Source: Lachnospiraceae bacterium (GTDB lineage: Bacteria; Bacillota; Clostridia; Lachnospirales; Lachnospiraceae). Taken from it: DNA of 61,188 nucleotides. The position numbers and the translations under genes were made by a program. Location of the stretch: NCBI GenBank assembly GCA_017935565.1, contig JAGBHK010000018.1, forward strand, positions 1-61,188. Reading direction: 5' to 3'. Shown one piece after another: positions 2,957 through 49,892 of this stretch (position 1 is the first letter of the stretch; every line of letters begins with the position of its first letter). A model generated the notes under the pieces. That model saw nothing but the letters and a program-made list of their open reading frames with translations, made no database searches and had not been told where the DNA came from.

Positions 2957-2982
2957 TTCTCCTTTCTAAAATTAATCACCTT

Positions 2983-4650: not shown

Positions 4651-4722
4651 TTTCTATTCTCCATTCGCATTTTCGTTAAATTCTAGTATATTATATAATC
4701 CGCTCAAAATCAAGTCTTTTTA

Positions 4723-7432: not shown

Positions 7433-7460
7433 CCAAACGTACCTTCCTTTTGTATATTCA

Positions 7461-7488
7461 AAAAGCAACAGCTTATGCCATTGCTTTT
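7461..7488 (-). terminator. Terminator after the lipoprotein gene
   Basis: Minus-strand stem of 12 bp (AAAAGCAATGGC with GCTGTTGCTTTT, two G-U pairs), loop ATAA, followed by T residues. It separates the lipoprotein gene from the GH53 gene. Confidence 0.7.
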
Positions 7489-7494
7489 GTATCC

Positions 7495-8019
7495 CTATTT
7501 TTTCTTTGTTTCTGCCTCAGTTTCAACAATTCTCATGCTTGATACGCTTTCTCTAAACAAAGGTTCCCAATCCTTATCATTCATAAATGTATACGCAATA
7601 GAATATGTAGCACCATCACAATCATAAATATAGCAAATCTGTGTCATTTCCACTCCCATAAGTTCACAATCTGCCTCAACATGTAATCCGTCAAATCCAT
7701 CTAATTCTACTTCTTCAAAAACCGTAACCTCTACTTCTACTTCCTGGGCTAATACTTTTTGTAAATTCTTCTTTAACTCAATCTCAATTTCAACTTCACC
7801 CGCATCTGCACGTATGGCTGTATTTTCTTCCTTACCATACACAATATTCGAAGTATCTATAGGATAATCGCTAGAATAATAAATCTTACCATCCTTTGAC
7901 GAGAATCCTGGTGGTACATTCCATTCCAACTTGTACGCCTTTTCCACTTCCTCTTTACATCCGGTCAATGCAAATATACCGCATATGAGCAATAACCCTA
8001 ATAATAATTTTTTCTTCAT
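7495..8019 (-). CDS. Putative lipoprotein, unknown function
   Basis: A 174-residue protein not recognised beyond its export signal. The N-terminus MKKKLLLGLLLICGIFALTGC is a lipoprotein signal with lipobox LTGC and acylated C21. The mature part is acidic, with alternating strands (EVEIEIELKK, VEVEVTVFEEVELDGFDG) and a conserved-looking segment CYIYDCDGATYSIAYTF, compatible with a small beta-sandwich. It ends in a Glu/Lys-rich tail. It has its own terminator. The upstream 80 bp is AT-rich with no clear operator. Confidence 0.75.
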   Translation of the reverse strand: MKKKLLLGLLLICGIFALTGCKEEVEKAYKLEWNVPPGFSSKDGKIYYSSDYPIDTSNIVYGKEENTAIRADAGEVEIEIELKKNLQKVLAQEVEVEVTVFEEVELDGFDGLHVEADCELMGVEMTQICYIYDCDGATYSIAYTFMNDKDWEPLFRESVSSMRIVETEAETKKK

Positions 8020-8098
8020 GTTTTTTTCTCCATTTCTTATGTTAAATAACCTTTAATATAGTAACATAATTAATCGGATTTTGCAATTGGCGATTGCG

Positions 8099-8234
8099 AT
8101 TAAGACATACTAATTCGCAACCTTCGGTTGCTCTTCGCGGGCTTGCGCCCTATATAAAGAAATAAGAACAGGCTCCCTTGCAAGCTTGCTTGCAGTGAGA
8201 CTGTTCTTATTTCCATGTAAATCATGAAATTTCT
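8099..8234. repeat. Intergenic hairpin-rich repeat, copy 1
   Basis: A 54-bp left part (8101-8154) is nearly identical to the left part of copy 2. It contains two small GC-rich hairpins: GCAACC-TTC-GGTTGC and GGGC-TTGC-GCCC. A long inverted repeat follows, AAATAAGAACAG at about 8159-8170 with CTGTTCTTATTT at about 8201-8212, whose centre contains a second palindrome around AAGCTT. The right end lacks the terminal inverted repeat seen in copy 2. Non-coding. Confidence 0.7.
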
Positions 8235-8376
8235 CATTAAGACATGCTAATTCGCAACCTTCGGTTGCTCTTCGCGGGCTTGCGCCCTATAAAATAAAAA
8301 ATAAGAAATTAGAATTTATTGTAAGCAAGCTTACATAAATTCTAATTTCTTATTTTCCATTTTGCATGTCTTAATG
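8235..8376. repeat. Intergenic hairpin-rich repeat, copy 2, with 13-bp terminal inverted repeats
   Basis: This 142-bp unit is bounded by the perfect inverted repeat CATTAAGACATGC (8235-8247) and GCATGTCTTAATG (8364-8376). It has the same 54-bp left block as copy 1, then a hairpin with 20-bp perfect arms (AAATAAGAAATTAGAATTTA and complement) that continues into TGTAAGC/GCTTACA with almost no loop. It lies just 3' of tRNA-Thr on the transcribed strand and could also act as its terminator. The overall form resembles a MITE or a REP-like element. Confidence 0.7.
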
Positions 8377-8386
8377 CTTTCGCGAA

Positions 8387-8459
8387 AGCTAGCAACGGGA
8401 ATCGAACCCGTGACCTCCTCACTACCAATGAGGTGCGCTACCGACTGTGCCATGCCAGC
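8387..8459 (-). tRNA. tRNA-Thr (anticodon GGT)
   Basis: A complete cloverleaf on the minus strand. The acceptor stem GCTGGCA pairs with TGCTAGC (one G-U). The anticodon arm is CCTCA-TTGGTAG-TGAGG with anticodon GGT, and the T arm is ACGGG-TTCGATT-CCCGT. The discriminator is T and CCA is not encoded. It reads ACC/ACU codons. Confidence 0.96.
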
Positions 8460-8480
8460 TTGTACTTGACGTACCTATAA

Positions 8481-8509
8481 AATATAAGATATTTTGTATC
8501 TTTTGTCAA
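8481..8509 (-). promoter_or_regulatory. Promoter of tRNA-Thr
   Basis: Minus-strand TTGACA and TATATT separated by exactly 17 bp, 22 bp upstream of the tRNA 5' end. Confidence 0.85.
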
Positions 8510-8560
8510 TATTGAATTATTAATCACAACCACAAAGCAATTTATTACTTAAAATTTTAT

Positions 8561-8600
8561 AAAAGAAGTGATGTCAAGACACTTATCTTCACACCACTTC
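8561..8600 (-). terminator. Terminator of the LRR lipoprotein transcript
   Basis: Minus-strand stem GAAGTGGTGT with ACATCACTTC (one G-U), an inner AAGA/TCTT pairing and a following TTTTATAAAA tract. It lies about 20 bp after the stop codon. Confidence 0.75.
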
Positions 8601-8621
8601 ATCCACATAAAAATCAAATCT

Positions 8622-9458
8622 CTATTCCATAATTTTATAATTAATATTGTATTCAATACAATACTTTTCCGCCAGACTATCCTTCAGGCATTCCACTGTT
8701 AAATACATTTTTGATTTATTAAATACTGATTCCCATATATATTCTAGTTCTGTATTTGCACCCTCAATTACAACTTTTGTTAAACTACGACACTCCCTAA
8801 ATGCTCCTTGACCTATTTTTTTCACAGTTGATGGAATTACTATTTCCTGAAGTTCATTCATTCCAAATGCTGCTTGTCCTATTATTTCCACATTTTCAGG
8901 AATTACAATATCATATAAACTGTTATTATAGAATGCGTTGTCACTTATTATTTTCAATGATTTAGGTAACTTTATTTGTGATATTGAATTACATGCTGAA
9001 AATGCAGAATCCCCTATTATTTCTAGCCCTTCGCTAAACTCCACTTTGATCAAACATCTACAAAACTGAAACGCTGCTTCCTCTATCTCTTTTACAGAAC
9101 TTGGAAGATATACTTCTAAAATACCACGATTATCTCTAAATGCTGCTTTACCAATTTTAGTCACAGGATATCCTTCTATAGTTTCTGGTATAGAGAATAT
9201 TTTTTCTTTACTTTTATATCCTGTAATAGTAACTTCTCCATCTATAATTTCATATCTAAAACATTCTACTGGTGTATAGTATTTCTCCGTTTCAGGTTCA
9301 ATTTCAGTTTCCGACTCTTTTTCCGAAGATTGTTCTACTATCTTCTCTTCATTTTTACTATTTTCTTCGTCTTCTTGTTTTGCACCGCAACCTACAAATA
9401 CCATCATAATTATGAGTAACAAGAAACCTATTCCAAATCCTTTAATTCTCTTATCCAT
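8622..9458 (-). CDS. Lipoprotein with BspA-type leucine-rich repeats (LRR_5)
   Basis: A 278-residue surface lipoprotein. The lipobox is FVGC with C24, followed by a Glu/Lys/Ser linker to about residue 60. About seven repeats with the treponemal/BspA pattern follow: an xAF core such as KIGKAAFRDN, EIEEAAFQFC, IIGDSAFSAC and IIGQAAFGM, spaced 22-23 residues with I-P-x-S/N-V between. The C-terminal KYCIEYNINYKIME cap is typical of this family. Such repeats mediate adhesion or protein binding at the cell surface. It is the last gene of a minus-strand trio with a J-domain membrane protein and a single-pass membrane protein. Confidence 0.88.
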   Translation of the reverse strand: MDKRIKGFGIGFLLLIIMMVFVGCGAKQEDEENSKNEEKIVEQSSEKESETEIEPETEKYYTPVECFRYEIIDGEVTITGYKSKEKIFSIPETIEGYPVTKIGKAAFRDNRGILEVYLPSSVKEIEEAAFQFCRCLIKVEFSEGLEIIGDSAFSACNSISQIKLPKSLKIISDNAFYNNSLYDIVIPENVEIIGQAAFGMNELQEIVIPSTVKKIGQGAFRECRSLTKVVIEGANTELEYIWESVFNKSKMYLTVECLKDSLAEKYCIEYNINYKIME

Positions 9459-9489
9459 ATTTTTCCTCCATTTTTTTAGTAATCCAAAA

Positions 9490-10533
9490 TTATATATCTG
9501 AGTTTTGATATCTACTCATTAACAATTCATATTCTTTATGTATTGCTTTGAATGTTTCTTCATCTCCAGCATACACATCTGGATGATATACTTTACACAA
9601 ATTTTTGTATCGTTTACTAAGTTCTTCCACATTTGAACATCCACTAAAGAATATATTATCTTTTTGCTCATTTATTTGACTTTGTAATGGAAACTTATCA
9701 TTTTTCCCTTTTCTTACACTCGCATTATAACCAATGTTATACATTTCATTAATCAATTCAACTATCTCATTATATTCAGATAAATAAAATTGTTTTGCTT
9801 CATACAAATTCTTTAACTCTCTAAACCTTTTTATATCTTCGGTTAACTGCATTACCTCTAGTTGCGAATATTCCATATCTGGATCGTTCATCAATCCTTT
9901 TATTAAAATATCTCCCATATTTAAGTTTTCCTCAGTTACACGTTTAAATTCCTCTTGAGCCTTTTTGACATTTTCCTTATATTCTTGCTCCTCTTTTTCA
10001 CGTTGTATTCTAATTTTTTCGCATTTTATATTGCGATTATTTGCTAATATTATGAACAATACAAACACAAATACAAACACTATTATCAAAAGGCTTATCT
10101 CAACCCATGTTTCAATTTTACTCACTAACTGGCTTATTGTTCCCAAACCAAACCCAAGAATTAATACCGCTGAAATACCATACAACAAGCCCGAAAAAAT
10201 AATATTAATAAATCCTACTTTTTCAAAATTATATGTTTCATTACAACAGTAACGTAGAATACTGCATATAATAATCGCAATAAATGACGATATGTATTCA
10301 TCAGTATCAAACATTAATGATATGAATAATCCTACAAACAAACCTACTATAACACCATGAAATAATGTAAGTGCCTTACCAAACATGGGTATATTTTCGA
10401 AAAACTGAATTAATCGGAACCATACTACTGTCCCGAATATAAAAATCAAAAAAGTTGCCAATATAAAAAGCCATTCTGGTATTCCTATGAAACTCAATAA
10501 ATATGCAATTAAAACAGAATAAATAAAAGACAT
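9490..10533 (-). CDS. Multi-pass membrane protein with C-terminal J domain
   Basis: A 347-residue protein. About six hydrophobic segments fill residues 1-165. A charged coiled-coil follows (about 170-205, REKEEQEYKENVKKAQEEFK), then a C-terminal DnaJ-like domain at about 290-342 (LSKRYKNLCKVYHPDVYAG) with the diagnostic HPD tripeptide. It probably recruits DnaK to a membrane client at the cytoplasmic face. The J domain lacks the G/F and zinc regions of true DnaJ. It starts 12 bp after the preceding gene, so the pair is co-transcribed. The client is unknown. Confidence 0.8.
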   Translation of the reverse strand: MSFIYSVLIAYLLSFIGIPEWLFILATFLIFIFGTVVWFRLIQFFENIPMFGKALTLFHGVIVGLFVGLFISLMFDTDEYISSFIAIIICSILRYCCNETYNFEKVGFINIIFSGLLYGISAVLILGFGLGTISQLVSKIETWVEISLLIIVFVFVFVLFIILANNRNIKCEKIRIQREKEEQEYKENVKKAQEEFKRVTEENLNMGDILIKGLMNDPDMEYSQLEVMQLTEDIKRFRELKNLYEAKQFYLSEYNEIVELINEMYNIGYNASVRKGKNDKFPLQSQINEQKDNIFFSGCSNVEELSKRYKNLCKVYHPDVYAGDEETFKAIHKEYELLMSRYQNSDI

Positions 10534-10545
10534 CCTTACCCTCCT

Positions 10546-11706
10546 TTATTGCTCTTTTACTGAGGATTCATATGTATATTTTTCTAAATTTTTGGTAACA
10601 CAATCGTTAAATAATAAATCTAATGATTGATAACCCACATACCAATAACTTCCAACAGCAAATGCCTTTCCTGTTAAATATCCCCACACATCTTCTCCAT
10701 CTGGAACTTTATATTTAGTTAAGTCTACTCCAAATTCACCATCAGCATATTTTATTAGATCAAAAAACTTTGTATAGTAATAATATGTAACTTCATTTTC
10801 TGGATTTGACATAGTTACTTTATATATTAAATACACAGAATTATCATCAACTCCATATTGAGAACTATCCTTTGCTACCAACAAATAACTTCCTATGTAT
10901 TCAAATGATTTTATTATTTCTTTATCCGTCCACTTATTAGCTGCAAATGCTGTAAAAGTATCTTTTGCTTGGTTCTGCATTTTAACTAAACTTTCTTCTG
11001 GAATTGAATCAATTGAAGTTATGTATTCGTCTAATCCTTCAACTGTATATTCTTTTTCACTTTCAACTATATGAAATCCATTTTCTTTCCCATAGCGTTC
11101 ATAGTCCGAATCAATAAAAACTTTAATAACATCGCCATTTTTAAGATTTTTAGTTACATTAGCTTCAAACCCTAAATAATCATTATATTTAATTTTTGTA
11201 CTATCTATTTCCACTGTTCCATTTGGTGAAATACCACTAAATGTAACAATTAAATCATCAAAAGGGTCGTATGCAACACTTTCTTCTAAGCCTTTGACTT
11301 CTACCGATTCACTTTCATATTTAATTCTACAATCATATCTTTTTTCATATGATTTTATATCTTTCACATCCCATTCAAATGTTATTTCATCACCATTTTT
11401 TAATTTTTCTGTTACATCAATTTTCCCAGTAATATCTTTTTCCGTCTCATATGCAATTTCTAAAAGGTCGTATTTGGATAAGCCAAAGTCTTCTGTTAAG
11501 TCTTCGACCAAACCTACATAATCAATCTTATATTTTGCCATTGCTTCACCGTCATATCCGTCATAACTTATTTCCAAGTAATCGTTAAGCACAATCTCCT
11601 TTTTTAAATAATAACTAATCGCAAAATATCCTATTACGATAGCCGCAACAATTATTAATACTGCTAAAATTATTATGACTTTTTTCTTACTGCTACTTTT
11701 TTCCAT
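10546..11706 (-). CDS. Single-pass membrane protein with repeated extracellular beta domains, unknown function
   Basis: A 386-residue protein. A basic N-terminus MEKSSSKKK and one transmembrane helix (about 10-34) are followed by an extracytoplasmic part. Two related modules there carry VTEKLKNGDEITFEWD and VTKNLKNGDVIKVFID, each ending in a GLxE/GLDEY-type turn, then a C-terminal domain of strands (LLVAKDSSQYGV, VTYYYYTKFFDL). This layout resembles clostridial zinc-ribbon-anchored envelope proteins, but the zinc ribbon is missing here. GGAGGATG precedes the ATG. It is the first gene of the trio with the J-domain and LRR proteins and is divergent from the XRE regulator. Confidence 0.75.
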   Translation of the reverse strand: MEKSSSKKKVIIILAVLIIVAAIVIGYFAISYYLKKEIVLNDYLEISYDGYDGEAMAKYKIDYVGLVEDLTEDFGLSKYDLLEIAYETEKDITGKIDVTEKLKNGDEITFEWDVKDIKSYEKRYDCRIKYESESVEVKGLEESVAYDPFDDLIVTFSGISPNGTVEIDSTKIKYNDYLGFEANVTKNLKNGDVIKVFIDSDYERYGKENGFHIVESEKEYTVEGLDEYITSIDSIPEESLVKMQNQAKDTFTAFAANKWTDKEIIKSFEYIGSYLLVAKDSSQYGVDDNSVYLIYKVTMSNPENEVTYYYYTKFFDLIKYADGEFGVDLTKYKVPDGEDVWGYLTGKAFAVGSYWYVGYQSLDLLFNDCVTKNLEKYTYESSVKEQ

Positions 11707-18371: not shown

Positions 18372-19739
18372 TTACTGTAAAAGTCTAAGCACTCCTTCAG
18401 CGTCATTCATCATTTGAGCCATAATGGCTTCGCCTGCCTGCATCAAAATACTATGTTTTGACTGAGCAACTACTTCTTCGGCCATATCTAAATCTCTAAG
18501 TCTTGATTCAGCTGCCTGAGTGTTCTCTGAAGCATTATTATTACTATTAATAGCATGCTCCAATCTATTCTGTTTTGCACCAAAATCACTTCTTATTGCA
18601 GAAACTTTTTCCAAGGCCTTGTCAATTCTGTCAAGAGCCTTGTCTCCATATTTTGGTTTTGTAATTGCAATTGAATTAATACCAAGAGAAACAGTATTAA
18701 CAAGCGGTTTACCAAGCGAAATGAAGTCTCCCACTTCACTGCTAAGTTGGATATTAATAGGTTCCTCTTCACCCTCTTCACCATATTCATTGTAGAACAA
18801 ATCCTGTTTTGCGCTTCCTGAAATATTATTAATCTTGTGTTCACCAAGCTTATAATAACTTAATTTTAAAACATTATCATCCATTTCAGCGCCGACTGGT
18901 GCATTTGCTGCGGTAAGCAATTCATTAACCTTATTTATAAGTTCTTCTGAGGTATACTCATCTGGCGGAATTGTTATAGAATAATTTGTACCATCTACAT
19001 CAAAGCTCAATACATTTTTTCCATCTTCTATTGTAACACCTTCCGAAATATCCTTTGCGCCCTTTACATACGCAGGAACCAACTCACCGTCTGTTTGATA
19101 GAATACACTAAATGCCGCATTTCCACTTACACCGTCAATAATGTATTCACCTTCACCAGGTAATCTTACGCTTTTTGATAATTTAAAGTTTAATGCATTT
19201 GCATCGTTAGAACCTGTAACACCCGTAGTTATTCCACCAATACCAACTTCTATTGTTCCTGGTTCAAAACCCTTAGCCACCATTGCTGCATCAAGTTTTT
19301 CTTGAATCATATCTTTTAAATCATCACCCTTATATGTACCAGCGTCTAGAGTTATTTCAAACTCTGTTGTGTTATTGCCATATTTAAAATCAAGAGAAAT
19401 TGTATCATTTACACCACTTTTAATTTCTACAGGAACATTTCTAACATCCTTACGGCCAATTGTATATGCAATGTCATTAGGTGCTGTACCATTTTCAACA
19501 TAATTAAAACTCAAATCATTGTTCCACTGGTTAATGGTAACTGGTTCAGCAATGCTTACACCATCAACATATGATGTTTCATCAGAAAAATAACCAGCGC
19601 TTGGTGTCGGATTGATATATGTTGTCTGTAATTCAGGTTCCTGTACAACACTTCCTGAATTCGAGTTTACTGATATAGTTCCGCCATTTTTAGTTCCTGT
19701 CAAAACCAATTTTCCATCCGAATTATATGATGCTGTTTT
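18372..19739 (-). pseudogene. 5'-truncated flagellin: central and C-terminal domains only
   Basis: About 455 codons of open frame encode the variable middle and an intact flagellin C-terminal D1/D0 region. The C-terminus includes FGAKQNRLEHAINSNNNASE, ESRLRDLDMAEEVVAQSK and the terminal MNDAEGVLRLLQ. The conserved N-terminal D0/D1 domain that pairs with it in the filament is absent. The frame is closed by TAA at 19742-19740 and a second TAA nearby, and the only starts are weak (TTG at 19709). It cannot make a polymerising flagellin alone. It is either a decayed gene cut by rearrangement at the folBK side or a silent donor cassette. The Asp/Glu-rich middle has no stops or frameshifts, so the truncation looks recent. 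Confidence 0.8.
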
Positions 19740-39235: not shown

Positions 39236-40696
39236 CTATACTGCTGCTTCTAACTTTTCAATACCAACCTTAATTCTCTTAATTGTCTCTTCTTTGCCGA
39301 TAACTTCCATTATCTCAAATGCGCCTGCTGGTGTCATCTGCTTACCAGATACTGCAGTTCTCACAGGCCATAAACCTGTACCATTCTTGATACCCTTATC
39401 TGCAATATATTTCATCATAATATCGTGAAGATTATCTACTGAATAATCATCTGTAGCTTCAAGCATTGGAAGTACTTCCTTCAATACTTCAAGAGAAATA
39501 GCTGAATCAGTCTTCATTTTCTTATGTGTATACATTTCAATATCATATTCTGGTAACTCTTCAAAGAAATCAACATGTTCCTTGATGTCTGGCAATACTT
39601 CGATTCTTGTCTTAACCATATCGAGAATCTTTTTAAGGTCTAAATCTTTTGTGATAACCTCTTTGATATAAGGCATTGCCATATCGTAGAACTTCTCGTT
39701 ATCCATAGCCTTAATGTATTCTCCATTCATCCATTTAAGTTTAACAATATCAAACACTGCTGGCGACTTACTGATATGTCTGTAATCAAACTTTTCAATA
39801 AGTTCATCAAGTGTAAATATTTCCTGATTATCTTCTGGACTCCATCCTAAAAGTGCAATGTAGTTTACAATTGCCTCTGTAATAAAGCCCTGCTCTAATA
39901 AATCTTCATAAGATGAATGACCACATCTCTTTGATAACTTCTTATGATTTTCATCAGTAATAAGTGGCAAATGTACATAAGCTGGAGACTCCCATCCAAA
40001 AGCCTCGTATAATCTCTGATATTTTGGAGATGAAGAAATGTATTCATTACCTCTTACAACATGTGTAATTTCCATCAAATGGTCATCTACTACGTTTGCA
40101 AAATTATATGTAGGGAATCCATCAGATTTAATGAGAATCATATCATCAAGTTCACTGTTATCAACTGTGATTTCACCATATAACTCGTCTTTAAATGTTG
40201 TCTGTCCCTCTGTAGGATTGTTCTGTCTGATTACATAAGGAATTCCTGCAGCAAGTTTTTCTTCAACCTCTTCCTTGCTAAGTTTTAAACAATGTTTATC
40301 ATAAACAGAGATTTCCTTTCCTGCAACTTCTGTCTTAAGACTTTCAAGTCTTTCCTTATCGCAGAAACAGTAGTATGCTTCACCTTTTTCAACTAATTCT
40401 TTAGCATACTTAAGGTACATACCTGTAGCCTGTCTTTCACTCTGTACATAAGGACCATATCCTTTATCCTTGTCAGGACCTTCATCATGAACAAGACCTG
40501 TACCTGCCATTGTTCTATAAATAATATCAACTGCACCTTCTACAAGTCTTTCCTGGTCTGTATCCTCTATTCTAATAATGAAATCGCCACCCTCATGCTT
40601 AGCAATTAAAAACTCATATAATGCTGTTCTTAAGTTACCTACATGCATTCTTCCTGTTGGGCTTGGCGCAAATCTTGTTCTAATTTTCTGACTCAT
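39236..40696 (-). CDS. gltX: Glutamyl-tRNA synthetase
   Basis: A 486-residue class I synthetase. The HIGH motif is [13 protein letters not shown], the zinc-like region is [14 protein letters not shown], the KMSKS loop is [17 protein letters not shown] and the anticodon-binding C-terminal domain is complete. It can charge tRNA-Glu and, with GlnRS also present, probably only that. It overlaps the PTPS-like gene upstream by the ATGA junction and is followed by the helicase. In Bacillus gltX lies beside cysE, which is not the case here. Confidence 0.97.
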
Positions 40697-41160
40697 ATTT
40701 CCTCCACTTCCGAAGCCTTAACTCCGTTTAATTTTTCTTCAATAATTTTCTCATCTACATTTTCATAAATGTCATTTATGCCATTATTATCGCTATCATA
40801 AATTGCATCAATTACATAGGATCTGGCTGGTGTTTCTGAAATCTCCATTCTAAGAAGCAACCATCCTTCCTGTTTCAACTGTTCTTCAATACAGTCTTTG
40901 AAATATTCACTGATGTTTTCTAATGTTGGGTTAAGCTCATTAAATGGCTCAATTTCATTAATATACTTATCCTGATATGGTGCCAGGATAGTATCAATAG
41001 TTTTTTCAACCACGTAGAACGGAACAAATTCTTCAATGATTTTAACGATATCAATCATTATTTCCCAAGTATGAGGATGAACCTGTCCCATTTTATCATT
41101 CAATGTAATTGAGTGATTGGCGTTCAAATAAAACTTATACTTATACTGACTGTACCTCAT
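40693..41160 (-). CDS. Stand-alone 6-pyruvoyl-tetrahydropterin-synthase-related protein
   Basis: A 155-residue PTPS/QueD-fold protein. Zinc ligands appear as H16 (YLNANHSIT) and H28, H30 in QVHPHTWEI. The PTPS helix [16 protein letters not shown] and the Glu of [12 protein letters not shown] are present. The catalytic Cys, four residues before the first His of HxH in QueD, is Met24. The Asp-His dyad is also replaced (YQDKYINEI). It is therefore unlikely to make pterin or queuosine precursors. It is the last XrtG-cluster gene before gltX, and overlaps both neighbours by 20 and 4 bp. Confidence 0.82.
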
Positions 41161-43702
41161 TTTTTGCTCCTTTCTTTCGTTTTTCTAAAACATTATATAA
41201 CACTATTCCACCAAATACAACCATAGAAATAATCGAAATCACCAAACTTTCAATGAAATATTTCGAAATATAACTAAATACTATCGTATGTGCTCCTGCT
41301 TCCACTTCAAATGCAAGCATTGTATTAAATGCCTCTTTGGTTTCGACTTTTTCACCATCAACATAAACAGTCCACCCTTCATCATATGGGATTGATGTCA
41401 TAACCATTTCACCTTCTGAAACTGTAATGTCACAAGTAATTTTAGAACTTGATTTTTTAGTGACAACTGTATCTTCAGGTTTAATTTTCTCTATACATTC
41501 TTTTAACAATTCCACATTTTCAACATATACTACAGGTTCTGATAACACAGTTCCATTTCCCACAGGTTTTATCATAACATCAACAATATTCCCTGTTTCA
41601 AACTGTCCAAGAACAATTACACCATTACCAAAACTATCAAAATACTGACCTCTAAGGCTTCCATTTACATAAACTTCTGCAGCCCCTGTTTCCACATTAG
41701 GAAAATACATATATATATTACCATTATCAATAGCTTTAACAATGTAATGAACATCTCCTGTTTTAGTATCTACAAATCGATTTTCGTATGTAATGTCTTT
41801 GAATAATACAACTTTTTTTCCAACAAGCCCAGAATATATTATATTCTGATACTGAAATGTATTCATATCTTCTGTTTTTTCTACATCTAAAATATCTGAC
41901 GACGATTTAAATACAAGTGGTAATGCATATTCATTTTCATAAACGTATATCTTATCAGTCTTTCCTATTACTTGATATCTGTTATGTATAGGCTCTCTAG
42001 TCATTATATATTTCACACCTAAGAGTGAATCTGCCGCATATGTAGAACCAAACCCATAATGAGTCCAATATTCGTAATATGCCATATATCCCATATCCTT
42101 CATAAACTCTTTAACATAAGCTTTTTCAGTAGAACTAAAATGAGACAACCCATTATAGGATAATAACATTGGGTCATTTGTCGAGTAATAAAATGTTTTT
42201 TCAATTCTGTATTCGCCTTCCATCTTATTTTCAACGTAATCAACGCATGGCTTCATCTCTTCGATATAACCAGATATACTATTGTCTGCGAAATATAAAT
42301 TTGAGAATTCCACCTTCGTATTCACATATGTACCTATAACAGTTGAAATAACCAAAACTATATTGAGTACCGCAATCAAATCTTTATCAATCTTATAGTA
42401 ATACATTATAACAATCATTGTAACTGCTATAACTACAACATCAAGAACCATAAATTTGATTACAGAAATATCACCAATAAATATTCCATTTGCAATTACC
42501 ATAACTATTACAATTGCAAATATAATTGCCTGCTGCCATCTTTTTGAAAGACCATGAATTCTGTGGTAACATTTCTCAGCAATAATAATTGCCATAAAAG
42601 AAAACACGAATGAATATCTGCAATAGAACATATTAGGTTTTGCAAAGCCATGCCAAACCATATCTGTCATCACAAAATACATACTTAAAACCAAAAACGC
42701 CAACACGCCAAAGGTAGCTATTTTTTCTTTAATTTTTATCTTATTATTCACAAAAAAACCAATAAGAAATACAAGCATTACAATACCGAAGTATAAATTT
42801 GGCATTTTCTCATAACCTTCTACCGAAACATTTTGTCCTGTAAAAAAGCAAGATAAAAAATCTTTTATGGAATAATTAGTTTCAAGAGTTAAACCAAATG
42901 TATCCCCACCCATTTCCTTACTTCCAGAAAGAGCAGATAAACTAGGAAGCAACACTACCATTGATATGCCAACAGCAAGTAAAGAACTTCCAGCAAATAT
43001 CATAAAACTCTTAAATTTAGTTTTAAATGATTCATTTCTAATAATAAAATAATATACCGCATATATACCTGTAAAAATACAAACCATATATCCTGTATAA
43101 TAACAAGATATGATTGTCAGCGCCAAAACAGAAATATATGGAATACAACTTTTCTTTTTATAAATTCTTTCCACACCCAATATAACTAATGGCAATAAAT
43201 ACACTGCATCAAGCCACATAAGGTTAAATATAAAAGCAACCATATATCCATTCAATGCATATGCAATAGCAAACATTGTATTTTTATATATGTAACCTCT
43301 TTTTGATGAAAGATAGATATACATAAACAAGCCAGACAAGCCAACTTTTATCATTGTCACAATCATAAGCATAAATGGTAAATGCACCTTATTTACAAAC
43401 ATAAGAATTATGTTTACTGGGCTTAAAAGATAATAGCCCGTAAGTCCATACATATCTCCACCTATAGCTTTAGAGAATGTATAAAATATATTATTACCCT
43501 CTCTAATAGAATCCACCAAATATGCAAAATAACTTACATATTGGTTGTTAAGGTCTGATGTGAGCACTGTTAAATTTTCATATGGATATATACCAAATCC
43601 ATTATATACCAGTAGAAGAATCAATATTGGCGCTAAAAATGCAACTACCAATTTAATATCCTTACGGCATAAAAGTCTTTGTAAATCACTTTCTGTTCTC
43701 AT
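41141..43702 (-). CDS. YfhO-family large membrane protein, exosortase-cluster associated
   Basis: An 853-residue integral membrane protein. About 12-14 transmembrane helices fill the first 470 residues (YNGFGIYPYENLTVLTSDLN, QYVSYFAYLVDSI, GYYLLSPVNIIL), characteristic of YfhO/GT-C-like proteins. A large extracytoplasmic domain follows (about 500-790), then a last helix. The YfhO family is linked to wall glycopolymer glycosylation. An ATG at 43702 is preferred. A TTG 14 codons earlier would overlap the GT2 gene. It overlaps the PTPS-like gene by 20 bp. Confidence 0.88.
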   Translation of the reverse strand: MRTESDLQRLLCRKDIKLVVAFLAPILILLLVYNGFGIYPYENLTVLTSDLNNQYVSYFAYLVDSIREGNNIFYTFSKAIGGDMYGLTGYYLLSPVNIILMFVNKVHLPFMLMIVTMIKVGLSGLFMYIYLSSKRGYIYKNTMFAIAYALNGYMVAFIFNLMWLDAVYLLPLVILGVERIYKKKSCIPYISVLALTIISCYYTGYMVCIFTGIYAVYYFIIRNESFKTKFKSFMIFAGSSLLAVGISMVVLLPSLSALSGSKEMGGDTFGLTLETNYSIKDFLSCFFTGQNVSVEGYEKMPNLYFGIVMLVFLIGFFVNNKIKIKEKIATFGVLAFLVLSMYFVMTDMVWHGFAKPNMFYCRYSFVFSFMAIIIAEKCYHRIHGLSKRWQQAIIFAIVIVMVIANGIFIGDISVIKFMVLDVVVIAVTMIVIMYYYKIDKDLIAVLNIVLVISTVIGTYVNTKVEFSNLYFADNSISGYIEEMKPCVDYVENKMEGEYRIEKTFYYSTNDPMLLSYNGLSHFSSTEKAYVKEFMKDMGYMAYYEYWTHYGFGSTYAADSLLGVKYIMTREPIHNRYQVIGKTDKIYVYENEYALPLVFKSSSDILDVEKTEDMNTFQYQNIIYSGLVGKKVVLFKDITYENRFVDTKTGDVHYIVKAIDNGNIYMYFPNVETGAAEVYVNGSLRGQYFDSFGNGVIVLGQFETGNIVDVMIKPVGNGTVLSEPVVYVENVELLKECIEKIKPEDTVVTKKSSSKITCDITVSEGEMVMTSIPYDEGWTVYVDGEKVETKEAFNTMLAFEVEAGAHTIVFSYISKYFIESLVISIISMVVFGGIVLYNVLEKRKKGAKNEVQSV

Positions 43703-43718
43703 ACTTCCTACCACTTCT

Positions 43719-45098
43719 TTATTTCTTTGTTTTACTGATACCAACCTTAATTTTTGTTACTAAATTTGTTATGAATGAAAAATCTTTCTTCACAAGTTCT
43801 GTGCTGTCATTATACTCTTCTGTATAATTTTTAGTTCTCCATGTACCACTGCTATTTATACTATTAATGATACCTGCAAATCTAATCCAGAATGTATAGA
43901 AATTATACAAAGGCATTAATATGCAGATATACCATTTTCCAGCATAGTATTTCTTAATTTCCTTGAATGGTGTTAGATATGTCAATATGTTTATATAGTA
44001 CAGCAATGCAGATATTACATACAATAAATATATCATTGCAGTTGAACCTATAACTATTTTCATTGGATAATTCATAAACACTAAACAAATAAGTGCAAAA
44101 TACCAAATCATACGTGGGAATGCAAATGTATGGTCAAATATTATAAGTCGAACCATGAAATTACTAATAGCACCCTTTCCTACTTTCATATCATCTTTAA
44201 GGAACATATTTGCAACTTCCAACTCACCTCTTTGCCATCTCTGACGCTGAGTATACATTTTATTTATATCTTCAATAGGGTCAACCATAAACAATGCATT
44301 TTCACAAAGATACACTCGCTGCTTTAAATTTTTTCGAATTTGGAATGTAACGTGAGTATCTTCACAAACAGTATCTGTATTATATAACTGTGTCTTTAAA
44401 ATAGTTGATTTTCTAAATGCAGAAAACGCACCAGACAATGTAAATATACTATCAAGTTCTGACTCAAAGTTTCTACCTGCCAAAAATGCCTGTCCATACT
44501 CACAGAATTCACACTTTCTAAACAATCTCATAAATGGATTCTTTGTACTTTCAATATCAGCAGGATTCGTTAGAATAGCACCTGTCATACAGTGAATGTG
44601 CTCGTTATTCTCAAATCTTGTAACCATATTTAATATAGCACTCTTTTCCAATGCACCATCACTATCGATATGTATAATATATTTTCCTTGTGCATTAAAT
44701 AAAGCCATATTAAGAGCTTTTGATTTTCCCTGACGAGCGTTTAGCCATTGCATTGAAAGGTCTGGAAAGTCATTTTGACACTCTGTAAATATCTCAAAAC
44801 TATTATCCTTTGACATATTATTAACCAATAACACGTCAATAAGCTCGTTAGGATAAGTCGAATCATTTATAGACTGTATACATCCTCTAAGCGTAACATG
44901 TGAATTATATACAGGAATAATAATAGTTATTTCTGGCTTTCGTCCCTGAATAGTCTCGTTTTTATCAATAGAAAATCTCTTCTTCAACAGAATAATGAAT
45001 CCGCCAATAGCAGGTACTATTTCTACAAGGAATGGAATTATTATCCATGTAAGCCAGAATATGAATGACTTTGATAAAGCAATTAAAATACTACTCAT
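43719..45098 (-). CDS. Family 2 glycosyltransferase, exosortase-associated
   Basis: A 459-residue processive-type GT2. An N-terminal transmembrane region is followed by a GT-A domain with PEITIIIPVYNSHVTLRGCI, the DxD-type IIHIDSDGALEKS (DSD at about 145-147), the ED of TDTVCEDTHVTFQI and QRQRWQRGEL. Three or four C-terminal transmembrane helices come last. It resembles the XrtG-associated GT family (TIGR03111, from memory). Start at 45098 has GGAGGAG upstream. It overlaps the XrtG stop by 8 bp. Confidence 0.92.
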   Translation of the reverse strand: MSSILIALSKSFIFWLTWIIIPFLVEIVPAIGGFIILLKKRFSIDKNETIQGRKPEITIIIPVYNSHVTLRGCIQSINDSTYPNELIDVLLVNNMSKDNSFEIFTECQNDFPDLSMQWLNARQGKSKALNMALFNAQGKYIIHIDSDGALEKSAILNMVTRFENNEHIHCMTGAILTNPADIESTKNPFMRLFRKCEFCEYGQAFLAGRNFESELDSIFTLSGAFSAFRKSTILKTQLYNTDTVCEDTHVTFQIRKNLKQRVYLCENALFMVDPIEDINKMYTQRQRWQRGELEVANMFLKDDMKVGKGAISNFMVRLIIFDHTFAFPRMIWYFALICLVFMNYPMKIVIGSTAMIYLLYVISALLYYINILTYLTPFKEIKKYYAGKWYICILMPLYNFYTFWIRFAGIINSINSSGTWRTKNYTEEYNDSTELVKKDFSFITNLVTKIKVGISKTKK

Positions 45099-45690
45099 TC
45101 TTCTCCTCCTCATATGAAAAACTACCTATCTTTTGTCGCTTGATTTGTGCTTTTGTAAACACATCAAAATACAAAATAACTGTCAATACATAGAAAATTA
45201 GTCGTCCAAAAATTGAGTGTGCAAAATAGAACCAATTATTTCCACCAAAATAGATTATGAAACAAATAGTAAATATTCTAATAACATTGGCCCCAAAAAT
45301 AAACACAATACCCATCAAGGAGTATTTAATCTTTTCTTTTTTGCTATATACATCAAAAAACCACAGCAATGCTAAAAATGCCATCATCTCGATTACTCCT
45401 GAACACTCGAAATCAACGCACAAAGAAACTGCTGCAGTATTTTTTGGTATAAAGAGCATACTATACTCATAGTACGAATCATACATTCCTGTTAACTCGC
45501 CTACTACACCTGCCACATACGCCACAAATTTTGTGAGTGGCGCTGTGACAAGTTTTTGTATCCATATAAGCATAAACACAAATGCTCCAACACTACCTAT
45601 AACGAACTTATGAAATTTTAATTTAGCTCTGTCACATACCCATAAGATATATAACCAAACTATAAAACATAAAACTTGTAATATAAACAT
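45091..45690 (-). CDS. xrtG: Exosortase family protein XrtG
   Basis: A 199-residue membrane protease/transpeptidase with about six transmembrane helices. The exosortase triad is complete: C96 in DFECSGVIEMM, R138 in NVIRIFTIC and H158 in FYFAHSIFGRL. Exosortases cut a substrate after a C-terminal PEP/CTERM-like signal and transfer it to a partner molecule. The Gram-positive XrtG type is shorter than proteobacterial EpsH. Its gene lies two bases after the sorted-substrate gene and overlaps the GT2 gene. Confidence 0.93.
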   Translation of the reverse strand: MFILQVLCFIVWLYILWVCDRAKLKFHKFVIGSVGAFVFMLIWIQKLVTAPLTKFVAYVAGVVGELTGMYDSYYEYSMLFIPKNTAAVSLCVDFECSGVIEMMAFLALLWFFDVYSKKEKIKYSLMGIVFIFGANVIRIFTICFIIYFGGNNWFYFAHSIFGRLIFYVLTVILYFDVFTKAQIKRQKIGSFSYEEEKNE

Positions 45691-45692
45691 GA

Positions 45693-46955
45693 TTAACTCT
45701 CTCTATTAAGTTTGCTCTTTTTCTTGTTATATACAAAGATTCCGCCTAAAACTGATGCTACACATATAGCAATTCCAATATATGGTGCAGATGAAGATCC
45801 TGCAATAGTCATACCCTGATCAAAAATACTTGGGTTTTTAACACTAATCTCTTTAATATCCTCAACATCTATACCGTGAACGATAGTAAATATCTCTAAT
45901 GGAATTTTTACTTCTATCTCATCTGGTTGTCCCGACTTACGAACAAAGCAAGCCTCTGCTCCATCTATAGGAGTTGCATCTGACATACCTGGAGTTCCGT
46001 GATGATAATGTAATATAAAATCATATGTACCATCTGCAAAATTTACATTCTGTACTTCCATACCATCTTCAGTATACAAATATACGTCTACACGTTCTCC
46101 TGCCGCAATTATATTAAAGTAGTTAGAGTTAAATGGATCTGGCCATCCATGAATCATAGTAATATGTATATATAAATATTCGCCATCATTGTATAATCCT
46201 AAAGTTCTACAATTGTCCTTTGTTCTCTGTTCTTCTGGCATATTCCAGTTAGTATCATATATATGAGGATATGATTCCCAATCTTCAAATAAACCATCGA
46301 TAATGATGCCCGAGTCAGCACTTGTAATATTCTCAATTGTGGTATCTTCCTCTTTTGGTGCAGTTGTAGACTCTTCTGTTGTACTTTCTTGTGAAGTTCC
46401 CTCTTGCGTAGTTTCCTCAGGTACTGTTGTTTCTTCGGATGACTCATCTTTTACTATTGGAACAACATCCACCCTATCATTATAATTGATTTTAAAACTA
46501 ACATTTTTAACTTCCCCAAAAGAAGAACAAGGTATCTTCATCTCAAATCTATATGTATCATCTTTTGTTCTAATAGCTTCACATCCATTAACTGGCATAT
46601 TACCATTTCTATCCACTACAGATAACTGTTGTCCTGCCTCAGTCTGCTCACCAGAAAAAACAGCTAAAGAATATGTCTTCCCATCTTCTGTTGTAATAAT
46701 CGGATCTAAATATGAAAAATAATTTTCCCATGGATTAACGCCATTTTCTTTTACATAAAAGCACACATATCCATTCTCAATAACTACATCTACTTTACTA
46801 AGGAATAAGCTTTCGATGCTATCCATATCATTCTCATTCCACTCATCATATTGTCCATCAATAACACATTCAGCATATGTAACTTCCGAACTGTTAATAC
46901 AAACAAGCGCTAATGCTAAAGCACCAATTAATTTTGACACATTTCTCTTTTTCAT
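45693..46955 (-). CDS. Secreted Firmicu-CTERM-type sorted protein with two IDG-x-W beta domains
   Basis: A 420-residue predicted XrtG substrate. A signal peptide ends at about residue 28 (SSEVTYA-EC). Domain 1 (about 29-165) starts VIDGQYDEWNEND, a Thr/Glu/Ser linker spans about 170-210, and domain 2 begins IIIDGLFEDWESYP. Both look like CBM9-type carbohydrate-binding beta-sandwiches. The C-terminus has the sorting layout GSSSAPYIGIA (from about 386), a hydrophobic helix and KKKSKLNRES. No LPXTG is present. It lies immediately upstream of xrtG. Identification as Firmicu-CTERM is by layout and context. Confidence 0.82.
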   Translation of the reverse strand: MKKRNVSKLIGALALALVCINSSEVTYAECVIDGQYDEWNENDMDSIESLFLSKVDVVIENGYVCFYVKENGVNPWENYFSYLDPIITTEDGKTYSLAVFSGEQTEAGQQLSVVDRNGNMPVNGCEAIRTKDDTYRFEMKIPCSSFGEVKNVSFKINYNDRVDVVPIVKDESSEETTVPEETTQEGTSQESTTEESTTAPKEEDTTIENITSADSGIIIDGLFEDWESYPHIYDTNWNMPEEQRTKDNCRTLGLYNDGEYLYIHITMIHGWPDPFNSNYFNIIAAGERVDVYLYTEDGMEVQNVNFADGTYDFILHYHHGTPGMSDATPIDGAEACFVRKSGQPDEIEVKIPLEIFTIVHGIDVEDIKEISVKNPSIFDQGMTIAGSSSAPYIGIAICVASVLGGIFVYNKKKSKLNRES

Positions 46956-46958
46956 ATT

Positions 46959-49892
46959 TTACCTCCTTTTCTGCTGCTTCGTGAGCAACATATTGATTAT
47001 CACAACGATTGACACAACCATAATGGTTATGCAAACACCTATTGCCAAACTATTGTAATTAAAATTAATAACTGTTCTACCCTTATCAACCCTTACTAAA
47101 GAATTTACCTTTTCTATACTATCATCACCTTCAAAATTCTTCTGATAGGCAATACCTAATACAGCCTCCTCCTCACTTTCTATTATAATACTTTTTCCGT
47201 CAAATTTCGAGTAAATATTTACAATTTTTCTTGTCGGACAAGAACCGCCCTCTAAATCAAGGATTTCATCGAACATTTCACCTATACTTTCATCTTGGGT
47301 TTCAATTGAGTGATATAACAAATTAAAACTTATCATATGTACATGTTCATTATATACTGTTCCATAAAATGCCAATTCCTTTTCGACGAGAGTTGTCTTA
47401 CCAATTACATTATCCAAATTTTCAATATAAACCGTATTCCATTGAGTATAATCTCCATAAAACTCCTTTGAAATAACAATATTATCGTTTATATGAAGTT
47501 TTGGATATGACTCTTTAAAAATAACTGACTGAGCAGTACATCCAAGGAATACCTGTCTATTTGTAAGTGGGTTACTCTGTATAGAATCCATATCAATGTA
47601 AACATCCACACCAGCATCTGCCAAATCCTTCACAAGATTTTCGGCATCCTCGAGGAACTCGTACTGTAAATCCGTCACATAAATCTTATCATACTCTACC
47701 AATTCTTCAAATGTATAATCCATAAGATTCTCTTTACTTGCTTCTTGGAAATATGGATATCTTATCGCAACATTGTCTGATTTTTCACCTACAGCAAGCC
47801 CTCTATAATCCACATTAACGCCATAATTTCCAGGTAAATCCCTGTGGAATATTGCATAAATGTCATTAATTTCAACAGTCTCATATTGATACTTTGACGC
47901 TGTAGAAACAATTGCTTCCTTATCTGCTTCCTTATAATTCAATCCTTCTATAAAAACAAGGAATGTATCGCAAGACATTTCTAGTCCTCTATCAAACAGA
48001 TAATCAAAATGTTTCGTATATAAAGCATATTTCAACTGAGCAATATTGTCAGAAATCATATTATATTTAGCTGACGAACGATTTGAAAAAACAATTTTCT
48101 TATCATTGTAAGTCATATAATATGCTGGATATGTACTATCATTATTAATATCCAAATATAATAAATTACTTACAGTATATTCTTCGGCTAATTCTACCGC
48201 TTCCTTAATATTTTTATCAATTATTGTTTGTTGTTCATATTGAACTGTATTTCTATAATTTCTGTTATATTCAAAATTATAAAGGCAAGAAATTGCCATT
48301 ACAAGGAGCATAGATACCGCAAAAATACGTTTACTTCCCTTCCATTGTACAATTACTGAAAATAACGCTAAATATGAAATAAACACAACTTGTGGAACAA
48401 AATAAATCGACACAATGCCCGCCAAAATACCTACAATACTTATATATCTAATATTGTGTTTTCCCAACAACATACATAATGCAAGCATAAGCATTACACC
48501 GACGCCGCCTTGGAAGCCTTCTTTGTTAATGATAAAGTCTGGAATACTTCCATTAGCGTAAGCGCTATATATCCAAGCCATGGACAATCCTACACCAACT
48601 ATCAACATTAAGAACACTTTAATGTATTGTGTGTACTTTTCATATTTTATACATCTAAATGCAAACATAAATAGCATTCCAATTATTACAACCATTGCTA
48701 CAGATAAATCTGATACAACTATAAGTGCAACTGTCACTGCCATCTTTGTCAATGTGCGCTTACGACTTTCTTTAAAGTATTCCGAAATATAACTGTATAA
48801 CAACGGCATAAATGACACTGCTAAAATAATTTTAGCATCACCTGTAATAAAATAATTTCTTGTCATTTCTGGTATGAAAAACCAAATAAATCCGGCTCCA
48901 AACCCAGCAAATGGTCTGTTGTATATTTTTCCAAGTCTTATAAATCCATACATACCTAAAAACATAGTAAGTGCAAGGAATAGAATATAACCTGATGCAA
49001 CACTATCACCAAACAACCAACCACAAAATGCCATTAAGTAATATGCCAATGGTTCACAATGCATAAACATCAAATAACCATCATACCAAGATTCCATATA
49101 TATAGGACTTAAGCGGCCCTTTAACAATTCTGACAACAAATACTGGCTCTTTCCTAAATGTAAATATACATCACCTGTATTTGTAAGAATTTCAAAAGAT
49201 TTAGCACAAAAATAAAACAGTACGCATAATGCAATTGCAGCCAGTACATAAAATCTAGAATGAACTATACTTCTTCTACTTGGTAACTCGTCAGTTTCAT
49301 CTATGGCAATACTTGCCGCAATAAGCGCTTCCTTAAGTTCATCAGGTTCTTCCTCAATTGGTGCTACAATTGGAGTTTCTTCAACCACAGGAGGGTTTTC
49401 TCTCTCTTCCTTTTCTTTTAGAATTTTCTCTTTTGCTCTAACCTCCTGGATTCTAACAAATTCATCATAATTCTCATCAATATATCTCTTAATTCTAATT
49501 TCATCACCCACAGAATCTTCAGCTAAGTGTCCCGAAATCAAGAAATCTGAAACCACATACAATCTGGATGGATTTTCACCAATCTCAAGTTTAACTAATT
49601 TGTATCCAATTTCAGACGCATTAGCCGCAATTACATTGTAAATTTCCCATCCAATATTCTCAATCGTTGGCATCTTTTCTTTAAATGCTGGCAAATCATT
49701 CATTAATTTACCATCATAAGAATGTTCAAAGAAAGTGTCCAATGCATACTGAGTACTATCAAATTCCTTGAAATTACCATCAATTTCATGAAAATACAAA
49801 TTCACCTCTACAGTATGAATGTGAGGTGCGTCCGAACCAATAGTATGTTTAATATTAAATTTTTGTCTGTATTTAAAATAACGATTTTCCAT
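46959..49892 (-). CDS. PTPS-related domain fused to large multi-pass membrane protein (XrtG cluster)
   Basis: A 977-residue protein. Residues 1-130 are a PTPS/QueD-like domain: H16 (FNIKHTIG) and H24, H26 in PHIHTVEV are the zinc positions, MPTIENIGWEIYNVI the helix and KLEIGENPSRLYVV the Glu strand. The catalytic Cys is Ser20 and the His of the dyad is missing (SYDGKLMND). A charged linker (130-205) leads to about 11-13 transmembrane helices with DVYLHLGKSQYLLSELLKG, GYLMFMHCEPLAYYL and others, as in the PTPS_related family (PF10131). A large exterior domain and a final helix end the protein. First gene of the operon. Confidence 0.85.
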   Translation of the reverse strand: MENRYFKYRQKFNIKHTIGSDAPHIHTVEVNLYFHEIDGNFKEFDSTQYALDTFFEHSYDGKLMNDLPAFKEKMPTIENIGWEIYNVIAANASEIGYKLVKLEIGENPSRLYVVSDFLISGHLAEDSVGDEIRIKRYIDENYDEFVRIQEVRAKEKILKEKEERENPPVVEETPIVAPIEEEPDELKEALIAASIAIDETDELPSRRSIVHSRFYVLAAIALCVLFYFCAKSFEILTNTGDVYLHLGKSQYLLSELLKGRLSPIYMESWYDGYLMFMHCEPLAYYLMAFCGWLFGDSVASGYILFLALTMFLGMYGFIRLGKIYNRPFAGFGAGFIWFFIPEMTRNYFITGDAKIILAVSFMPLLYSYISEYFKESRKRTLTKMAVTVALIVVSDLSVAMVVIIGMLFMFAFRCIKYEKYTQYIKVFLMLIVGVGLSMAWIYSAYANGSIPDFIINKEGFQGGVGVMLMLALCMLLGKHNIRYISIVGILAGIVSIYFVPQVVFISYLALFSVIVQWKGSKRIFAVSMLLVMAISCLYNFEYNRNYRNTVQYEQQTIIDKNIKEAVELAEEYTVSNLLYLDINNDSTYPAYYMTYNDKKIVFSNRSSAKYNMISDNIAQLKYALYTKHFDYLFDRGLEMSCDTFLVFIEGLNYKEADKEAIVSTASKYQYETVEINDIYAIFHRDLPGNYGVNVDYRGLAVGEKSDNVAIRYPYFQEASKENLMDYTFEELVEYDKIYVTDLQYEFLEDAENLVKDLADAGVDVYIDMDSIQSNPLTNRQVFLGCTAQSVIFKESYPKLHINDNIVISKEFYGDYTQWNTVYIENLDNVIGKTTLVEKELAFYGTVYNEHVHMISFNLLYHSIETQDESIGEMFDEILDLEGGSCPTRKIVNIYSKFDGKSIIIESEEEAVLGIAYQKNFEGDDSIEKVNSLVRVDKGRTVINFNYNSLAIGVCITIMVVSIVVIINMLLTKQQKRR

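Follow-up and report, generated by a model that had tools for sequence, protein, structure and literature searches.

What does the operon around the exosortase XrtG make, and what is the exosortase needed for? The question is raised by six genes of a Lachnospiraceae bacterium, which are located on contig JAGBHK010000018.1 of assembly GCA_017935565.1; positions 1 to 61,188 were analysed, and this whole stretch of 61,188 nucleotides is referred to as the window. No function for XrtG was found in the open-access literature, in which one paper naming the XrtG/Firmicu-CTERM system was found (PMC12854382); a subscription paper may exist. Here, we propose that the six-gene operon likely makes a surface glycan, and predict that its exosortase attaches a partner protein to this glycan. 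Domains related to 6-pyruvoyltetrahydropterin synthase (PTPS), probably pseudoenzymes, would act as a switch. We hold this combined reading with moderate confidence. By comparison with related loci, XrtG can be broken down into components that are open to testing, namely a likely synthase of a glycan, a dedicated partner and, in the PTPS-like domains, pseudoenzymes.

Gene content and distribution of the XrtG cluster

The six genes are all encoded on the minus strand between positions 40693 and 49892 (Table 1). In the order of transcription, they are separated by +3, +2, -23, -26 and -20 bases, in line with the overlapping or nearly abutting arrangement described in the original prediction, which had been made from the sequence of the window. 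The family names proposed there were borne out by hidden Markov model (HMM) searches, as TIGR03110, TIGR03111, TIGR03112, TIGR04145 and PF10131 were all matched above their cut-offs. This includes the 199-residue protein, which is recognised as an exosortase and contains C96, R138 and H158 as predicted. The fused PTPS domain of the PF10131 protein scored 54.6 bits with TIGR03112, below the cut-off of 69.35.

XrtG is sporadic. Among 299 sampled genomes of the phylum, which were searched for XrtG, TIGR03112, TIGR03111 and TIGR04145, it was found in 12 (8 exceeding the cut-off), and a sample of relatives contained it in 2 of 41 genomes and in one of the eight genomes of the genus, the window's own being counted in both cases. 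TIGR03112 scored above the cut-off in 10/299 genomes and TIGR03111 in 9/299, and all of these are among the 12 XrtG-positive genomes. The two XrtG-positive genomes lacking TIGR03112 over the cut-off are G011, where the locus is a shortened frame of XrtG and the family 2 glycosyltransferase (GT2), and G108, with a weak, distant exosortase. In G214, which has no TIGR03111 match over the cut-off, XrtG is located at one end of a contig of 4,884 bases. TIGR04145 exceeded its cut-off in just two of the 299 genomes, both XrtG-positive, so that 8 of the 10 genomes with TIGR03112 are without a partner detectable by this model. The genome of the window, which is 81% complete, has a single TIGR03110 match and a single TIGR04145 gene, which holds both TIGR04145 matches.

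The neighbourhood of XrtG was compared across 93 loci (numbered with L), made up of the best 80 of 168 loci from a scan of genome contigs, 12 further loci and the window, and annotated with profiles built for this analysis. Fifty of the 80 scan loci extend at least 6.5 kb to either side of XrtG; these well-covered loci contain genes for PTPS (50), CTERM (50), GT2 (50), PF10131 (49) and a sensor (42). A frequent gene order is PTPS a, CTERM, XrtG, GT2, sensor, PTPS b, PF10131, and elsewhere PF10131 precedes XrtG. In the 80 loci, neighbouring cluster genes with less than 2 kb between them form 405 pairs; the two genes are on the same strand in all of these and within 60 bases of each other in 373, indicating that the arrangement is more than chance. 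Both the co-occurrence of TIGR03112 and TIGR03111 with XrtG and the gene content of the loci agree with the earlier proposal that the six genes act together, and an absence of co-occurrence in other genomes was not seen. The cluster had also been called complete; this does not hold, since the window operon is without a sensor or cyclic di-GMP (c-di-GMP)-type gene, present in 44 of the 50 well-covered relatives.

The closest relatives among the best 80 loci are from metagenome-assembled genomes of Lachnospiraceae and Eubacterium (XrtG 66-68% identical), which makes the same family likely for the window. The YfhO protein is encoded in 6/93 loci, namely the window, L026, L027, L029, L030 and L031. 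The operon is similar to the XrtG cluster of NCBIfam in that the same four families (TIGR03110, TIGR03111, TIGR03112 and TIGR04145) are found in one operon and the genome has one exosortase and one TIGR04145 gene, but it differs by having YfhO where 42 of 50 well-covered relatives have the sensor, and by the fusion of PTPS to PF10131. Lactiplantibacillus plantarum also possesses a CTERM gene, XrtG and two glycosyltransferases (LP_RS09075-09090), and a study on strains that induce interferon lists these XrtG genes as over-expressed (PMC12854382). The passage of that paper describing these genes names no PTPS, YfhO or GGDEF gene.

Shortened frames in two loci look like deletion remnants: L023 carries an XrtG-GT2 frame (9785-11233), from which part of the GT2 is missing, and L038 a 177-amino-acid frame combining GT2, PTPS and PF10131 (10578-11111).

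Table 1. Genes of the XrtG cluster in the window, listed in the order of transcription
Feature	Position	Strand	Evidence
PTPS-like domain (residues about 5-115) and GT-C-fold PF10131 membrane protein; C-terminal non-membrane domain, last membrane helix	46959-49892	minus	PF10131 220 bits, PF01242 35 bits (both above the Pfam gathering score)
Firmicu-CTERM partner protein	45693-46955	minus	TIGR04145 102 bits (cut-off 50); model with a predicted local distance difference test (pLDDT) score of 80; 80 aligned tails
XrtG exosortase, C96/R138/H158	45091-45690	minus	TIGR03110 205.6 bits (cut-off 102.75); triad counts
XrtG-associated GT2	43719-45113	minus	TIGR03111 685 bits (cut-off 364); D103, D150/D152, E251-D252, Q289-R290-x-R292-W293
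Membrane protein of the YfhO family (predicted GT-C glycosyltransferase; listed with a TTG start)	41141-43744	minus	PF09586 602 bits (above the Pfam gathering score)
Stand-alone PTPS-like protein, likely pseudoenzyme	40693-41160	minus	TIGR03112 153 bits (cut-off 69.35); residue conservation

A putative synthase and its predicted GT-C partners

Residues D103, D150, D152, E251, D252, Q289, R290, R292 and W293 of the GT2 are invariant in the 87 aligned XrtG-adjacent GT2 proteins (L018, L023, L024, L028, L038 and L079, whose GT2 is absent, truncated or a remnant, were left out). The QxxRW residue set marks processive membrane polymer synthases. After TIGR03111, the next NCBIfam model for the window GT2 is PgaC/IcaA with 127 bits, below the cut-off of 422, and PgfS reaches 15 bits. 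As a first step, we propose that the GT2 would polymerise a glycan at the membrane, as its invariant motifs suggest.

The PTPS-PF10131 protein was modelled at a pLDDT of 86. Residues 2-116 of the model match PTPS, that is a T-fold, and residues about 204-685 match GT-C enzymes (oligosaccharyltransferases, AftD, ArnT and PMT), so that the protein models as a T-fold joined to a GT-C glycosyltransferase. YfhO-family proteins are described, in the part of PMC8035078 that concerns them, as GT-C transferases using a lipid-linked sugar. In a second step, the PTPS-PF10131 and YfhO proteins would add sugars from a polyprenyl-phosphate donor to the polymer on the outside of the cell, the fold being predicted for one of the two. 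The original prediction had the GT2 and YfhO proteins make or transfer a glycolipid acceptor. Its YfhO part is refined by the published description of the family and by the GT-C fold modelled for PF10131. The QxxRW set of the GT2 points to a polymer synthase.

Additional genes of other loci fit a surface glycan, in particular a GtrA-type flippase and a GtrB-like GT2 in L032 and a phosphoglycerol-transferase fusion in L073. In the latter (2722-5661), a single protein combines the XrtG-associated GT2 with a phosphoglycerol-transferase (Sulfatase-family) domain. L064 and L074 read like the L073 fusion, and L080, L083 and L100 have GT2 frames of more than 900 residues. A lipoprotein-like gene in 19/80 loci has a weak profile match to a glycoside hydrolase family 2 glycosidase (E 0.029). 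No XrtG match is present in the genome to which L117 belongs; in this locus, a member of the glycosidase-like lipoprotein family adjoins a 403-amino-acid membrane protein and a GT2 (5614-10497); the lipoprotein homologue lies two genes before the GT2, which has 465 residues and a partial TIGR03111 match of 94 bits.

Following the glycolipid acceptor of the original prediction, one might also speculate that no polymer is made, and that the GT2 and YfhO proteins produce a glycolipid onto which XrtG transfers the cut partner protein as a membrane anchor. We consider this rather unlikely. The QxxRW set, a mark of polymer synthases, in the 87 aligned GT2 proteins speaks against it, a larger glycan is suggested by the phosphoglycerol-transferase fusion and by the glycosidase-like genes that neighbour XrtG in some loci, and four fused XrtG proteins without the Cys (see below) would be incapable of Cys-based transfer; on the other hand, the Cys/Arg/His triad is kept in 89/93 XrtG proteins and archaeosortase ArtA substrates are lipid-anchored (PMC7157517).

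Somewhat less probable still is a glycosylation of the YfhO/PgfM type, in which the GT-C proteins would glycosylate the partner protein or teichoic acid, with the GT2 making no more than the lipid-linked sugar. The YfhO match of 602 bits and the published work on this family, as far as covered in the relevant part of PMC8035078, are consistent with such a process, as are the matches to PgfM1 and PgfM2 of Streptococcus (about 300 bits, under the cut-offs of 1400 and 1500) and the loci L032-L034, where a second GT2 is accompanied by a GtrA-type gene and a GT-C (L032 checked with Pfam). However, the TIGR03111-type GT2 scores 127 bits with PgaC/IcaA compared to 15 bits with PgfS, and where a GtrB/DPM-like GT2 was annotated (16/80 loci), it is encoded by a separate gene besides the XrtG-adjacent GT2. 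The window operon shares with CsbB/GtcA/YfhO glycosylation the GT-C family YfhO, and L032 additionally the GtrB-like GT2 and GtrA-type protein, but it differs by the QxxRW GT2 and the exosortase, and no GtrA was found in a Pfam scan of the six window proteins.

The partner protein and the role of XrtG

The partner protein is composed of an N-terminal signal-like segment, two beta-rich domains (about residues 49-173 and 230-386), the motif AGSSSAP, a membrane helix and a basic tail. Its profile gave weak matches to xylanase chains (E 0.026 and 0.054), which we take to be CBM9 carbohydrate-binding modules, so that binding of carbohydrate by the partner is at most a candidate function. The tails were aligned for the 80 loci having a separate CTERM gene. 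In the motif before the membrane helix and basic end, G is found in 74/80 sequences, T/A/S in 74 and S or P in 79; the later positions are T or S in all 80, G or A in 77 and P or A in 76. Residues R138 and H158 of XrtG are kept in 93/93 proteins and C96 in 89/93, as are all three together. In a third step, XrtG is predicted to act on the partner once this has been exported: it would recognise the AG[TAS]S[TS]GP-like tail, cut it and leave the protein on the glycan or on the lipid primer of the latter.

Such a coupling would be reminiscent of the PEP-CTERM/EpsH system, which likewise combines an exosortase located beside glycan genes with a C-terminal motif, membrane helix and basic tail, and Gram-negative and cyanobacterial exosortases have been linked to matrix attachment (parts of PMC1569441 and PMC12188702). 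In contrast to that system, the genome of the window has a single TIGR04145 gene with another tail motif, and the operon includes a QxxRW GT2 and PTPS-like domains.

The only four of 93 XrtG proteins in which the Cys is replaced by Asn are those of L016-L019; R138 and H158 are retained. These proteins are 398-400 amino acids long, carry an N-terminally fused domain with a DGxFxDW motif and have no sorting tail. As they form one clade (support 0.95), the Cys was probably lost in a single event. A domain starting with DGxFxDW is also C-terminal in the PTPS-PF10131 protein of L015, L020 and L021, with a hydrophobic stretch and then a basic tail behind it, and this GT-C-borne domain is homologous to the XrtG-borne one (33-35% identical, hhalign E 1e-22). 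In two further loci, L052 (9287-10576) and L056 (437-1753), the CTERM protein and XrtG are encoded in one frame with both the sorting motif and the Cys kept. The loss of the Cys thus tracks the tail-less fusion and not fusion alone. Judging from the four Cys-less proteins, it may suffice to keep a partner-like domain at the synthase, and a natural loss of the exosortase Cys together with a tail-less, partner-like fusion bears on what exosortases are for.

PTPS-like domains as a candidate switch

The QueD-like protein of the window's genome served as the reference in an alignment of 138 PTPS-like domains, 62 encoded upstream and 76 downstream of XrtG, and we assign catalytic and pocket roles to the aligned residues from what is known of PTPS/QueD. 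All three zinc histidines are kept in 58/62 upstream and 75/76 downstream copies. The first pocket Glu is present in all 138 domains; the second pocket position is Glu in 46/62 upstream copies (Asp in 13) and in 74/76 downstream copies. None of the 138 domains has the catalytic Cys and none has the Asp-His pair, which makes it likely that they are pseudoenzymes. In five loci (L014, L044, L045, L052 and L060), a PTPS domain replaces the C-terminal domain of the sensor after its second membrane helix, and thereby occupies the position of a sensor output domain. The well-covered loci encode two PTPS domains in 38 cases, one in 11 and three in one; no PTPS domain was obtained in 10/93 loci, several of which are short. 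In a FastTree phylogeny, the 76 downstream copies form one group (support 0.25) and 56 upstream copies another (0.97).

We predict that the PTPS-like domains are cytoplasmic pseudoenzymes which bind a guanine- or pterin-like ligand and switch glycan synthesis. The earlier suggestion that these domains sense or bind a ligand has thus gained from the retained zinc and pocket residues, the lost catalytic residues and the sensor-output position in five loci; it has gained no ligand. A structural role, in which the domains oligomerise and cluster the glycosyltransferases and bind no signal, appears doubtful to us. The PTPS fold is oligomeric, and the presence of two domains in 38 of 50 loci, and of three in one, would be in keeping with a scaffold, but a scaffold would not require conserved zinc histidines and pocket Glu residues (one of them in 138/138 domains), and the PTPS domain stands in for the C-terminal domain of a sensor in some loci. 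That the domains are active pterin or queuosine enzymes is highly improbable, given the absence of the catalytic Cys and the Asp-His pair from all 138 copies, a QueD score of 33 bits against a cut-off of 89 and a separate QueD-like gene elsewhere in the genome.

Returning to the proposed switch, the ligand would most likely be c-di-GMP or a related nucleotide, whose binding would gate glycosyl transfer as the fourth step. The sensor proteins, found in 42/50 well-covered loci, have two membrane helices flanking an outer domain. The C-terminus of the sensor in L042 (Clostridium ljungdahlii) is a GGDEF domain above the Pfam cut-off, the L032 sensor has GGDEF above the cut-off and an HD domain, and the L033 sensor matches a GGDEF profile built in this analysis and carries an HD-GYP signature. 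A full-length sensor profile including these three rows is co-linear through their GGDEF part. Among the YfhO-bearing relatives, an EAL-type gene follows PTPS b after 12 bases in L026, L027 and L029 and after 23 bases in L030, and in all of these except L027 an RTGGDEF gene comes next; the EAL-type gene is thus found in 4/5 of these relatives, the fifth, L031, having a sensor and no EAL/RTGGDEF pair. L026, the sole one of these relatives scanned by Pfam, scored 220 bits for EAL and 86 bits for GGDEF. L028 ends inside the GT2 and is not counted either way. As the window operon is without a sensor or cyclic-nucleotide gene, the signal would originate elsewhere in the genome, where 19 GGDEF domains are encoded on other contigs; in many relatives, sensor or cyclic-nucleotide genes are part of the operon itself.

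PgaCD and BcsA are c-di-GMP-controlled synthases. The XrtG system shares with them the QxxRW GT2 and, in some relatives, GGDEF, EAL or HD genes in the operon, but a Pfam scan of the six window proteins found no PilZ, and PTPS-like domains are in the possible receptor position. A more far-reaching idea, which we regard as speculative and rather unlikely, would make the PTPS-like domains a new receptor class for cyclic nucleotides: a dead T-fold, with a guanine/pterin pocket for c-di-GMP, would control glycan synthesis by the GT-C to which it is attached and by the GT2 next to it. In this view, XrtG would mainly serve for docking, keeping its surface protein close to the synthase, and the tail-less fusion would make the catalytic Cys dispensable. 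If the ligand were c-di-GMP, this would be a new receptor fold for a central bacterial signal, and the operon a Gram-positive counterpart of exosortase-linked matrix building.

A number of observations weigh against the reading proposed here. With regard to the signal, the window operon has no sensor, and neither GGDEF nor EAL or HD-GYP was detected when its six proteins were scanned with Pfam; no sensor or GGDEF-type gene was found in six of the 50 well-covered loci (L038, L048, L061, L069, L071 and L093), and none in the stretch covered, short in some cases, of the ten distant loci L015-L024. With the three clear rows excluded, the kinship of the remaining sensors to GGDEF is weak (hhalign 37%, E 3.5e-4, compared to E 0.27 for a PTPS profile as control), as is that from a comparison with the PDB profile (E 0.25). 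GGDEF is found in 279/299 genomes, XrtG-positive or not, and does not discriminate at the genome level, and a c-di-GMP riboswitch was detected in only one of 41 scanned sources, L042. With regard to the partner, the XrtG-borne domain of the Cys-less fusions is weakly related to the partner domain of the window type (hhalign 53%, E 1.3e-4), and the GT-C-borne copy still more weakly (12.7%, E 0.0023), with unrelated control domains at 0.1-0.3%; for L017 and L015, TIGR04145 gives matches in register that stay under the cut-off (E 0.009; profile positions 2-138 and 1-144 of 191). The partner-XrtG fusions of L052 and L056 keep the Cys, and no CBM9 match was obtained with the single-domain profile of the partner or among the fold matches listed. 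Lastly, the genome of the window, which is 81% complete, yielded no counterpart of the glycosidase-like gene that some relatives have.

The XrtG region of C. ljungdahlii (L042) lies between two c-di-GMP-II riboswitches (3303-3386 and 18589-18672). The first is located upstream of a gene resembling a chemotaxis receptor by its sequence, and no terminator-like site was found between this gene and the cluster, which comes next. In the window, the place of the EAL/RTGGDEF genes is taken by gltX (glutamate-tRNA ligase by likeness), which overlaps the last cluster gene by 4 bases (40693-40696), so that the two may share a transcript.

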